Translations under genes and position numbers: made by a program
Notes under the pieces: model-generated
Database searches by the model: none
Told to the model about the DNA's origin: nothing
The model's input: only the letters and a program-made list of their open reading frames with translations
Part shown: one piece after another, positions 1-64,000 of the stretch
How positions within the stretch are numbered: position 1 is the first letter of the stretch
How the letters are laid out: each line of letters opens with the position of its first letter
NCBI RefSeq assembly: GCF_018613935.1
Contig: NZ_JAGGPF010000008.1
Coordinates: 62,001 to 126,000, forward strand
Length of the DNA: 64,000 nucleotides
Direction of reading: 5' to 3'
Source of the DNA: Agromyces sp. ISL-38
GTDB taxonomy: Bacteria > Actinomycetota > Actinomycetes > Actinomycetales > Microbacteriaceae

Positions 1-44
1 GCCCGCTGACTCGCCGGCCGCCCTACTGCACGCCCGCATTCATC

Positions 45-99
45 GAGTGGGCGAAAATGGCGGCCTTCCTACGGCGGAGGCCGCCAACATCGCCCACTC
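45..99. repeat. Imperfect inverted repeat downstream of the DUF559-type gene
   Basis: Two 22-nt arms (45-66 and 78-99) are reverse complements except for three adjacent central positions, with an 11-nt loop. The right arm read on the minus strand carries GAGTGGGCGATGTTGGC, a word that recurs at 1113-1129 at the other end of the neighbouring gene. It lies just past that gene's stop codon, so it could act as a terminator, but the shared word points to a dispersed repeat family. Confidence 0.75.
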
Positions 100-1064
100 A
101 TTGCGCTCCGGGGATTCGTCTGGCTTCGCAGGCTCGCCGGACCCGCGCGATGAGCCGCTCCGGCTCGTGAAAGACGGCACGAGAGGTGACACGGATGACG
201 CGCCAGCCCGCATCCTCGAACAACTCGCGCCGCTCGATGTCCCGGTGCCACCTCCCCGCGTCGCGATGATCGTCTCCTTCGTACTCGATCGCGATGCGCA
301 GGTCGGGGTAGGCAAGGTCGGGGTGAAGCACGATCGATCCATCGCCAACGGGCACGGGCACGCCGATCAGCGGCTCGGGAAGGCCCCCGGCGACGAGCAG
401 AAGGCGCATCAGGGTTACCATCCTCGAGTCGACCCCGGTGCGGAGACGAGGGAGCGCCCCACCTGGCCGAGGCCACTCCCCGCATGCGTGGGTGTGTACG
501 GATCGCACGTTCGAGCGACGCGAGATCGGAGAGGGGTGGCTCACCGTTTCGGCGGCTCTGCACTGCGCCGCTGATCAGGAAGTCACCGACCGCCGTGAGG
601 TCCTGAGCGCTCAATGCCGACGCCAGCTGCATCCACATCGTCTCCGCCGTGACCACCGGCAATCCGTGCAGGAAAGAGACCGGGAACGACGACCTGGTGC
701 GGTGGCCGCATGAGCCTGATGTGCGCGCCCGGGTCGTCGTGGCGCTCAAGACATGCAGCGGCCTGATCGCGCCGGCACTGTGCGGAAGGGGAGCACCATA
801 GAGGAGCGCGGCAGTGGTGTGGCTGAATGCCTCACCGGGTCGCAGGAGTGGTTCGTAGGCGTTGCACGCGTCGACGATGGATGCGATGTCGAGGCCCATC
901 GCGCTGACGCCGAAGAAGGGATGATCCACCTGCTGCGTGCGGAGTCGCGCCCGCGTCGTTCCGAATGCCGCGTGTTCACTCGTGCGGATGGCGGCGCCGT
1001 TCGGAATCGGCGGTCGTGCAGGAGCGGGTCGCATCGGGCCATCGTCGCCGCGACGGCTCGTCAT
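98..1064 (-). pseudogene. DUF559 / AbiEi-like protein, frameshifted
   Basis: On the minus strand, the reading frame from 1064 (ATG) gives an N-terminal half resembling AbiEi/DUF559 proteins (a short wing-helix-like segment ending HPFFGV, then SHTTAALLYGAPLP). It loses homology after RTHPRMRGVASARW. A second frame ending at 98 supplies the C-terminal DUF559 nuclease-like part (DLAYPDLRIAIEYEGDDHRD, then WRVIRVT), a Vsr/PD-(D/E)XK-like fold in this family. The frames join cleanly if one C is removed from the CCCC run at 457-460, giving the family-like junction SARWALPRLR. So it is a single-base insertion pseudogene, or a sequencing error in a homopolymer. Members are common and mostly uncharacterised in Microbacteriaceae. 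The true start is uncertain (alternatives at 1031 and 899). Confidence 0.75.
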
Positions 1065-1112
1065 GGTGCGAAGTTGTCCACAGCGCAGGCGCGCATCCGC
1101 GGCATCCGACGT

Positions 1113-1167
1113 GAGTGGGCGATGTTGGCTGAAAAACCTGTGCCATTCGCACCAACTTCGCCCACTC
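1113..1167. repeat. Inverted repeat upstream of the DUF559-type gene
   Basis: 16-nt arms (1113-1128 and 1152-1167) match with one mismatch and read GAGTGGGCGAWGTTGG. The left arm matches the minus-strand right arm of the repeat at 45-99, so both ends of the DUF559 pseudogene carry the same word inside a hairpin. It sits between the divergent pseudogene and eno, outside the eno promoter-proximal region. Confidence 0.75.
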
Positions 1168-1310
1168 GATGGGATAGCGGCGATGGATCGGCTCGAGGCG
1201 CCCGCGCCATCGGACGGCGGCGCGCAGCGGCATCCGCGTCGTCCTAGACTGACTGGCGGATCACGACGGAGTCGTCCGACGCACACCCCCCCATCACAGA
1301 GGAGTCCACT

Positions 1311-62247: not shown

Positions 62248-62259
62248 TCGCTGGATGCG

Positions 62260-63795
62260 TCAGTGCGCCGCTGGCGCACCCTGCATCATGTCGGCCGGCT
62301 TGCGCACGAAGAATGCGCCGACGATCGCCGTGATCGAGAGGATAGCGCCCACGAGGAATGCGGCGCGGATGCCGGCGGCCTCCGAAATCTCGGACGACAC
62401 GCCCGTGGCCGCGACGGTTGCCGTGATCGCCGCCATCACCGTGATGAACAGCGCAGTGCCTGCCGCTCCGGCGACCTGCTGCACGGTGCCGACGATCGCC
62501 GAGCCGTGCGAGTACAGCCGCGGCTCGACTGACCCCAGCGCCGAGGTGAAGAGCGGCGTGAACATGAACGCGAGGCCGGCCGACAGCACGACGTGCGTTA
62601 TGAGCAGCATCCACGGCGGCGACTGCTCGGTGACCATCGTGAGCGACCACAGCACCGCGCTCACCGCGATGCTGCCGGGCACGATGAGTGGAGTCGGTCC
62701 GAAGCGGTCGAACAGGCGGCCGACCGTCGGACCGAGGAGCCCCATGGTGAGGCCACCGGGGAGGAGCATCAGCCCTGTGACGATGGGCTCGAGATGGAGC
62801 ACATTCTGCATGTAGATCGGAAGCAGGATGATGGTTCCGAAGAGCGCCGCCATCATCACCGTCATGAGGGCGACGGAGACGGCGAAGTTCGTCGAGCGGA
62901 ACGTGCGCAGATCGAGCAACGCACGGTCGGCGCGCTGGAGTGCGCGCTGGCGCAGGATGAACGCGGCGATGCCGATCGCGCCGATCGCGAGCGCGATCCA
63001 CATCGGGGCCGAGCCGTTCGAGGTGCCGCTCACCTCGCCACCGACGAGGCTCAGGCCGTAGATGATGCCGCCGAAGCCGAAGGCCGAGAGCACGACCGAG
63101 AACACGTCGATCGGGATCACGCGCGGTTCGCTCACGTTCTCGACCCGGCGGATGCCGATGACGAGCATGACGAGCGCGATGGGCAGCACCAGCCAGAACA
63201 TGAACCGCCACGAGAGGGAGTTGAGGATCAGGCCCGAGATCGTGGGCCCGATCGCGGGCGCGACCGAGATCACGATCGTGACGCGGCCCATGAGCCGGCC
63301 CCGATCACTCGGTGCCACGAGGGTCATGAGGGTGGTCATGAGGAGAGGCATCATGATGGCGGTGCCGCTCGCCTGCACGACGCGAGCGAGGAGGAGCACC
63401 TCGAAGCCCGGCGCGAGGGCGGCGATGAGGGTTCCGGCCGAGAACAGGCTCATGGCGGTGATGAAGATCGGTCTCGTCGCGAAGCGCTGCAGCAGGAAGC
63501 CCGTGATCGGGATCACGACGGCCATCGTGAGCATGAACGCGGTGGTGAGCCATTGCGCGGCAGAGATCGTGATCTCGAGGTCGTCGACGAGATGGGGGAT
63601 CGCGACGCCCATGATCGTCTCGTTGAGGATGACGACGAAGGAGGCGGCGAGCAGCAGCCAGATCACGCGATTGTTGCGAGCACCGTGCAGTGCTTCGGCG
63701 TCGGAGTGTTCGTGGAATTCAGGCATGGACGAACCGCCGACCGCTGCTGGAGCGATATCGGCGGCGTCGAGTTCAGAAGCGGCGCGTTCGGTCAA
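62260..63795 (-). CDS. DHA2 family MFS multidrug exporter
   Basis: About 488-511 residues with 14 membrane helices, EmrB/QacA type. VILNETIMGVAIPHLVDDL is helix 1, LLARVVQASGTAIMMPLLMT contains the antiporter motif C region and SDRGRLMGRVTIVISVAPAIGPTISG (partial) is the family signature. It exports drugs by proton antiport. The start is uncertain: TTG 63795 gives LTERAASELDAADIAP at the N-terminus, whereas ATG 63726 gives a shorter protein. No regulator gene is visible within the window. Confidence 0.88.
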   Translation of the reverse strand: MTERAASELDAADIAPAAVGGSSMPEFHEHSDAEALHGARNNRVIWLLLAASFVVILNETIMGVAIPHLVDDLEITISAAQWLTTAFMLTMAVVIPITGFLLQRFATRPIFITAMSLFSAGTLIAALAPGFEVLLLARVVQASGTAIMMPLLMTTLMTLVAPSDRGRLMGRVTIVISVAPAIGPTISGLILNSLSWRFMFWLVLPIALVMLVIGIRRVENVSEPRVIPIDVFSVVLSAFGFGGIIYGLSLVGGEVSGTSNGSAPMWIALAIGAIGIAAFILRQRALQRADRALLDLRTFRSTNFAVSVALMTVMMAALFGTIILLPIYMQNVLHLEPIVTGLMLLPGGLTMGLLGPTVGRLFDRFGPTPLIVPGSIAVSAVLWSLTMVTEQSPPWMLLITHVVLSAGLAFMFTPLFTSALGSVEPRLYSHGSAIVGTVQQVAGAAGTALFITVMAAITATVAATGVSSEISEAAGIRAAFLVGAILSITAIVGAFFVRKPADMMQGAPAAH

Positions 63796-63816
63796 GGAAA
63801 AGCATCCAATCAATGA

Positions 63817-63834
63817 CGGCGCAGAGCTGCGCCG
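63817..63834. promoter_or_regulatory. Inverted repeat in the divergent promoter region of the DHA2 gene
   Basis: CGGCGCAGAGCTGCGCCG has perfect 8-nt arms around AG. It lies 21 nt upstream of the TTG start of the exporter and 76 nt before the partial gene at 63911. It may be a regulator site (drug exporters are usually repressed) or a leader hairpin. Confidence 0.5.
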
Positions 63835-63910
63835 GGGAAAAGCGTCGAATACTGGGTCAACCCGCGCAGGATGATGCACTATTCCCGGATTCCGAGAAGG
63901 ATCGGAACGT

Positions 63911-64000
63911 ATGGAATCGTCTGCGCGAGGCGGTGAGGTCTACGGCGCGGGCGCCGGGCCATCGATGGGCGGCGCCCCAGGGGCGCGCTCGTCGTCGGCG
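63911..64000 (+). CDS. Partial reading frame cut by the window end
   Basis: An ATG at 63911 is preceded by GAGAAGGAT at 63894-63902. The 30 codons to the window edge are open and read MESSARGGEVYGAGAGPSMG and then Gly/Ala/Ser-rich residues, a disordered N-terminus. The gene is divergent from the exporter. The family cannot be told from this piece. Confidence 0.5.
   Translation, partial: MESSARGGEVYGAGAGPSMGGAPGARSSSA

Follow-up and report, generated by a model that had tools for sequence, protein, structure and literature searches.

Highly iterated DNA words of bacterial chromosomes have been grouped, in a paper on the cyanobacterial word HIP1 (Elhai 2015, PMC4390886), into three classes: Chi, uptake sequences, and HIP. 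The second class is treated, in the portions of the literature available to this study, as a trait of two families, Neisseriaceae and Pasteurellaceae. The DNA uptake sequences (DUS) of the former are short, non-palindromic, and present in hundreds to thousands of copies (943 to 5918 for the different dialects; Frye 2013, PMC3630211), with usually one dominant word per lineage and related words, sharing the core CTG, in sister genera. The uptake signal sequences (USS) of the latter (Redfield 2006, PMC1626085) have no orientation bias, reach a higher density in noncoding DNA than in genes, evolve by substitution, and fall into two subclade-specific types within a single family. The subject of this report is a non-palindromic 9-mer of Agromyces sp. 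ISL-38, found in a stretch of 64,000 nucleotides (positions 62,001 to 126,000 of contig NZ_JAGGPF010000008.1, or C24:62001-126000, referred to below as the window), the consensus of which is CGGATGCCNC. The word is maintained at the DNA level and has lineage dialects, the clearest of which, GGAGGCGCGG, stands in place of the Agromyces word in Frigoribacterium. Genome comparisons leave it evenly balanced, in our estimation, whether CGGATGCCNC acts as an uptake-sequence-like tag of self DNA that differs in dialect between lineages of this Gram-positive family.

Abundance and consensus of the Agromyces word

Within the window, GGATGCCGC occurs 26 times and GCGGCATCC 24 times, giving 50 copies versus 3.9 expected when the window is modelled as a third-order Markov chain (about 13-fold), while the 10-mer CGGATGCCGC is present 40 times versus 1.5 expected under a model of the same order. 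The over-representation had been recognized in the original prediction, in which the copies were put at about 46 (25 and 21), somewhat short of the exact tally, and the expectation at 1.9, which is too low. The whole genome of the window (G000; 3.72 Mb in 24 contigs) holds 2154 copies of the 9-mer (1099 and 1055 on the two strands), versus 104 (47 and 57) for the reversed word, which served as the genome-wide control; CGGATGCCGC accounts for 1787 copies, or 0.48 per kb. In a 390-kb sample, consisting of the window and 20 further G000 stretches (326 kb), the word is the most over-represented 9-mer (250 copies versus 45 under a fourth-order model). Genome-wide counts equal to a Markov expectation had been named as the outcome that would speak against a selected word; such equality was found neither in the window nor in the sample.

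The same sample reveals an extended 11-mer, CGGATGCCGCG, with 135 copies versus 3.7 expected (third-order model), as well as 345 copies of CGGATGCC. When single letters of the 11-mer are varied, tolerance is seen at G9 and at the final G, where other letters occur at about 9 to 22 times the expected number. In the CC pair, the first C is replaced by each of the three other letters at about 4 to 8 times expectation, and the second C, like the word's first C, admits certain letters at up to roughly six times the expected number. At the other positions variants are scarce and mostly close to chance.

Maintenance at the DNA level

Simple in-house gene calls, according to which 80% of the 390-kb sample is coding and some of the ‘noncoding’ DNA may consist of missed genes, show that CGGATGCCGC is enriched on both sides of the gene boundary. 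Genes contain 148 copies, versus a mean of 15.7 (maximum 25) over 50 shuffles of synonymous codons, a nine-fold excess, and the 76.5 kb of noncoding DNA contain 53 versus 1.7 expected under a Markov model; the density is higher in noncoding than in coding DNA by these calls (0.69 versus 0.47 per kb, p 0.02). All six frames are used by the coding copies, mainly two of them (60 and 51 of the 148), in agreement with the earlier description of copies in every frame, on both strands, and between genes. That description also held that coding copies use GAT although GAC dominates elsewhere (1155 GAT versus 5344 GAC in the sample), which applies to the commonest frame and fails for the second one, which reads GCA TCC. 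The commonest frame encodes mostly Ala/Thr-Asp-Ala-Ala (45 of 60 copies), and an artefact of codon pairs, in particular of Ala-Asp-Ala, had been put forward as an explanation that would undo the claim; it is rejected by the 50 synonymous shuffles together with the excess in noncoding DNA.

Further evidence for maintenance comes from the alignment of the window with stretches of five Agromyces genomes, G019 (the closest), G008, G007, G002 and G014, in which silent sites were taken as third codon positions (codon-matched) and noncoding sites (base-matched). Silent changes inside the word number 9 versus 41.5 expected in G019, 24 versus 49.4 in G008, 30 versus 51.1 in G007, 39 versus 54.0 in G002 and 42 versus 72.0 in G014, comparisons that share one window and are therefore not independent. 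First and second codon positions are without clear protection (second positions: 6 changes versus 3.9 in G019, 15 versus 8.6 in G002), and in G007 the noncoding sites within words are changed more often than expected (10 versus 5.9). Of the 46 aligned sites, G019 keeps the whole 9-mer at 32, versus 2837 of 5276 for permuted words of the same letters; among the 89 permuted words that have at least 10 aligned copies, however, 12 or more are kept at 80% or better. Among the 46 aligned copies, those not intact in G019 carry one to three mismatches in 13 cases and a gap in one (four more copies are unaligned), which indicates change by substitution and not by insertion.

The orientation of the copies was followed along the sampled stretches of three genomes, in which no local strand bias was detected (chi-square 11.8 on 19 degrees of freedom in G000, 7.7 on 14 in G008 and 13.8 on 13 in G025), as had been anticipated. 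A strand-oriented role was rejected, given the lack of local bias in the 19, 14 and 13 stretches. Close pairs of copies in these genomes amount to 69 versus about 42 expected, a weak effect, and are more often of opposite than of same orientation (48 versus 21). Perfect copies of CGGATGCCNC number 297 in G000 (18 by chance), 295 in G008 (14) and 178 in G025 (10), and single-mismatch copies 476 (306 by chance), 322 (232) and 298 (184), respectively; for the word of G094, described below, the figures are 50 (2) and 72 (52). Once chance is subtracted, perfect copies outnumber those with a single mismatch, at about 279 versus 170 in G000. Taken together, the enrichment relative to synonymous shuffles and within noncoding DNA, the protection of silent sites and the absence of local strand bias support the proposal that what is maintained is a DNA word and not a protein motif.

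Distribution and lineage words

Among named relatives of the window's PhoH2 gene product, the nearest is that of Agromyces subbeticus (91%), in a comparison from which entries of the genome itself may be missing; for what follows, genus g1 was taken as Agromyces and family f1 as Microbacteriaceae. CGGATGCCGC is present in 279 to 2784 copies in 37 Agromyces genomes and, when these are extended to 60, in 140 to 3082 (the highest in G218), never falling to the control level. Outside the family, by contrast, 23 genomes drawn from 19 families of the same order hold 6 to 77 copies, near the reversed-word control, a result that gives further backing to a word acting at the DNA level. Across 150 genomes and 85 genera of the family, counts extend from 0 to 2441; they are high in several genera (G160, for example, has 1702) and low in most small genomes. 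On a tree of a 1275-bp gene, in which support is good for 9 of the 22 inner branches, genomes with high and with low counts group together beyond chance (8 and 13 of 500 shuffles were as low), yet five changes are needed.

A scan for top words in sampled stretches (20-100 kb each) of 17 further genomes of the family showed that words containing GGATGC lead in the high-count genomes G060, G160, G122 and G088. Among the 13 others, a strong and different word appears only in G094, where GGAGGCGCGG has 50 copies versus 2.0 expected in a 100-kb sample from which CGGATGCCGC is absent (0 copies). This excess involves both coding DNA (28 versus 4.2 after synonymous shuffling) and noncoding DNA (22 versus 0.35), and two named Frigoribacterium loci of 21 kb each hold 9 and 15 copies; the Frigoribacterium word is GGAGGCGCGG in place of that of Agromyces. 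The two genomes searched in genus g57 contain 1378 and 936 copies of GGAGGCGCGG, with CGGATGCCGC at the control level; within the 150 family genomes, GGAGGCGCGG also reaches 688 and 673 copies in g53, and 33 in G000.

The other candidate dialects are weaker, and since they were picked as the top words of small samples, part of their excess arises from selection. Such words were detected in G145 and G063 (one genus), G114, G176 and G127. A third word, TGGATGCGC, stems from named Leifsonia loci, in which TGGATGCG occurs 38 times versus 11.6 in genes and 3 times versus 0.6 between genes; it is highest in G176 (624 copies), G183 (503), G132 (457) and G087 (383). Within genus g77, G114 has 399 copies of GGAGGCGCGG and 94 of TGGATGCGC, while G183 has 133 of GGAGGCGCGG (control 98) and the 503 of TGGATGCGC given above, and because the counts are reversed the two genomes differ in their word. 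Genus g26 provides another candidate, CGGATCCTG (coding 14 versus 1.1), and Clavibacter yet another, CGGATCCG (27 versus 5.0); GGAT or GGAG is common to the candidate words. The scans of G087, G093, G132 and G154 yielded nothing clear, and the top words of G110, G104 and G075 resemble local or dispersed repeats. In Curtobacterium, GGAGGCGCGG is in excess between genes (12 versus 0.24) and not in coding DNA (2 versus 1.0), and as the excess is intergenic only, it was not counted as a clear dialect; the intergenic words of this genus are perhaps a dispersed repeat, not a chromosome-wide word.

Some additional words were observed in the course of these scans. The Curtobacterium loci L049, L050, L060 and L080 are also frequent in GGACGGGAGGC (12 versus 0.1). 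G110, of genus g73 (L115-L118), holds 18 copies of AGGAGCCTGG versus 0.2, and AGGAGCCTGG and CTGGTACTGA resemble parts of a longer dispersed repeat; two genomes of this genus have few copies of CGGATGCCGC, namely 6 and 3. In Arthrobacter and Paenarthrobacter (L077, L082, L084-L087, L092, L093, L098), CGACGGCGG is present 85 times in coding DNA versus 30.8 after synonymous shuffling and 22 times versus 1.8 between genes, and is possibly a further lineage word, outside Microbacteriaceae.

The word in mobile DNA

The word is nearly absent from the 18-kb surroundings of SPP1-type portal genes in the word-rich genomes G008 and G025, with 0 and 1 copies, respectively, versus 23 expected jointly from the densities of the hosts. 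The portal match is the sole evidence of prophage for such stretches, the ends of which were not mapped, and the first of them (G008) has a G+C content of 61%, below that of its host, a difference that would bring the expected count down somewhat. Seven portal stretches from word-poor hosts contain 9 copies versus about 20 expected, or about half, and five of these seven contain 7 versus 15.8. In four phages, three of Microbacterium and one of Curtobacterium, 3 copies of the 10-mer CGGATGCCGC occur in 113 kb, host densities not having been measured.

Portal genes were also surveyed in the 60 Agromyces genomes, with word-poor defined as 911 copies or fewer, a cut-off set after the counts were known (1400 was used earlier). 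A portal of any kind is present in 7 of 24 word-poor genomes and in 5 of 36 others (p 0.19). PF04860 portals were seen in 7 of the 24 (G016, G022, G032, G212, G216, G012 and G015) and in none of the 36; PF03354 was matched in four genomes, all of them word-poor and all also carrying PF04860, and is therefore not independent. SPP1-type portals do not follow the PF04860 pattern, and prophage load is not claimed as a cause of low counts.

A proposed uptake-like role

Strand neutrality, preference for noncoding DNA, change by substitution and the existence of dialects match the description of uptake sequences, and an uptake-like role is, because of the lineage dialects, the likeliest and best-fitting of the roles that had been offered for the word. 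The resemblance to DUS lies in the number of short non-palindromic copies, in the one dominant word that usually marks a lineage, and in the related words of sister genera, with a shared core of GGA followed by T or G in place of CTG. The resemblance to USS lies in the absence of orientation bias, the higher noncoding density, the substitutional change and the presence of different types within one family. The abundance of both systems, on the order of one copy per kb, is matched by the 10-mer density of G000. Unlike DUS, the Agromyces word belongs to a high-GC Gram-positive family; it is randomly spaced, with few close pairs and a copy number that varies widely inside a single genus, and several genera of Microbacteriaceae were scanned without a clear word.

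The presence of competence genes in the host also fits. Three genes of G000 form a cluster at L150:8963-13090: comEC, a comEA-like gene whose product has helix-hairpin-helix and SLBB domains, and a gene for a protein resembling DNA polymerase III delta (comEA and holA are names assigned here). ATPases of TIGR03819, which we take to be TadA-like, are matched in all 60 Agromyces genomes and exceed the cut-off in 53; weak matches mean little, as they are also present in 13 of 14 control genomes. Micrococcus luteus belongs to the same order as Agromyces. In that species, also an actinobacterium, tad genes are required for transformation, and the combination of tad-like genes and ComEA/ComEC is reported to be common among actinobacteria (Angelov 2015, PMC4322843). 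The terms ‘uptake sequence’ and ‘uptake signal’ are absent from the main text of the Micrococcus paper.

We infer the receptor, the biased uptake, the drive and Agromyces competence itself along the following lines. A DNA receptor at the cell surface, belonging to the competence apparatus, would favour word-bearing fragments, and DNA imported through ComEA/ComEC would thus come mostly from relatives. Recombination would then spread and repair copies of the word, in a form of molecular drive. A shift in the preference of the receptor could allow a new dialect to take over, as may have occurred with GGAGGCGCGG in Frigoribacterium, and weaker uptake would lead to decay of the word and to the approximately 20-fold range of copy number within Agromyces. 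A more tentative proposal, which we consider somewhat doubtful, is that Microbacteriaceae represent an independent third origin of sequence-specific uptake with dialects, with drive operating through a Flp/Tad-type pilus and a receptor preference that differs by genus.

Several observations weigh against an uptake-like role. Competence genes do not track the number of words: ComEC was found in all but two of the 150 family genomes (148), irrespective of how many words they contain (the two misses being genomes 82% and 93% complete), and being near-universal it was rejected as a discriminator of word abundance. The notion that a damaged TadA-like ATPase leads to low counts was promising on 37 genomes and failed on 23 unseen ones, with classes assigned among the matches listed; G208 and G210 have damaged ATPases and are word-rich (2628 and 2127 copies), while G221, G219 and G212 are word-poor (243, 324 and 140) despite a match over the cut-off. 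The spacing of copies is random and not more regular (coefficient of variation 1.007 over 231 gaps in the 390-kb sample), unlike that of USS, which is somewhat more regular than random, although this is a shared trait and not part of their definition. USS also have far more perfect than single-mismatch copies, while the raw perfect copies of CGGATGCCNC are the fewer (297 versus 476 in G000, before correction for chance). Several low-count genera are without a clear replacement word in the small samples scanned, and the prediction of a second portal family in word-poor genomes failed, PF05133 being present in 3 of 24 word-poor and 5 of 36 word-rich genomes. Finally, no candidate receptor was identified, and the matches listed from the open-licence literature include no transformation in Agromyces or Microbacteriaceae.

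Those same matches contain nothing on such a word in Microbacteriaceae, and as far as they show, an uptake role, if true, would be the first case of uptake-sequence self-recognition in Gram-positives. A Gram-positive word with a similar genome anatomy and dialects would allow the origin of self-DNA recognition to be studied comparatively, and uptake would imply that soil and plant bacteria exchange genes by an unsuspected route. Should uptake prove wrong, a word that is maintained in about 1800 copies in this genome and swapped in a related genus still calls for a reader.

Alternative roles

A first alternative, unlikely in our view and yet deserving serious attention, is a HIP1-like or nucleoid site, in which a chromosome-organizing or repair protein would bind the word and weak selection would keep each copy. 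Protection of silent sites and a random, strand-neutral spread would fit it equally well, and HIP1, the function of which is unsettled, is itself a known highly iterated word, with an abundance that varies between relatives (PMC4390886). The same source describes HIP1 as a palindrome, GCGATCGC, that does not differ among the lineages in which it occurs, and of which inner sequences are targets of two orphan methyltransferases. The lack of a palindrome and the replacement of the Agromyces word in other genera argue against HIP1 itself, as does the difference within genus g77 against a site of this kind; a span of 140 to 3082 copies in one genus would be odd for a structural site.

A methylation mark, imposed by an orphan methyltransferase and used for self-recognition in uptake or in defence, is improbable, though still a live alternative. 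The short non-palindromic core with some tolerant positions is consistent with it, and the near-absence of the word from the two portal-gene stretches of word-rich hosts would suit a mark of self; restriction sites, however, are usually avoided rather than enriched. More improbable still is a Chi-like site for recombination by a RecBCD, AddAB or AdnAB enzyme, which the G-rich composition, the iteration on the chromosome and the conserved silent sites could suggest, and against which stand the local strand neutrality in three genomes (the origin not being mapped), an excess above the usual Chi level and the replacement of the word in other genera. That the word is a functionless mutational or codon-pair by-product, as the prevalence of Ala/Thr-Asp-Ala-Ala in its commonest coding frame might hint, is scarcely credible, being contradicted, unless mutation is suppressed at the word, by the nine-fold excess over synonymous shuffles, the noncoding excess and the reduced number of silent changes.

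Copies in the window

On the forward strand of the window, copies of the word lie at 3013-3021, 3726-3734, 3762-3770, 3771-3779, 4925-4933, 9251-9259, 11882-11890, 16156-16164, 18807-18815, 24402-24410, 32005-32013, 32837-32845, 35105-35113, 36521-36529, 37811-37819, 45265-45273, 47783-47791, 50416-50424, 50714-50722, 54764-54772, 56610-56618, 57709-57717, 58711-58719, 58966-58974 and 61799-61807. Those on the reverse strand are at 1099-1107, 1227-1235, 10345-10353, 11246-11254, 12190-12198, 13202-13210, 14117-14125, 16325-16333, 18039-18047, 25445-25453, 27680-27688, 32745-32753, 41758-41766, 42937-42945, 44532-44540, 45170-45178, 52920-52928, 53202-53210, 54532-54540, 56290-56298, 57565-57573, 59216-59224 and 60189-60197. 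The positions quoted in the original prediction coincide with these exactly or to within 11 bases, except for ‘1206’, which is in fact 1227.

The remaining two copies are inverted and overlap (14444-14452, forward; 14451-14459, reverse), forming a 16-bp palindrome at 14444-14459 that lies between convergent genes, by the gene calls, and is a possible shared terminator for them. Terminator hairpins were rejected as the main role of the word, as only 8 of 478 GGATGCC sites start a close convergent pair. At L017:5634, two copies of GGCATCC are immediately adjacent.

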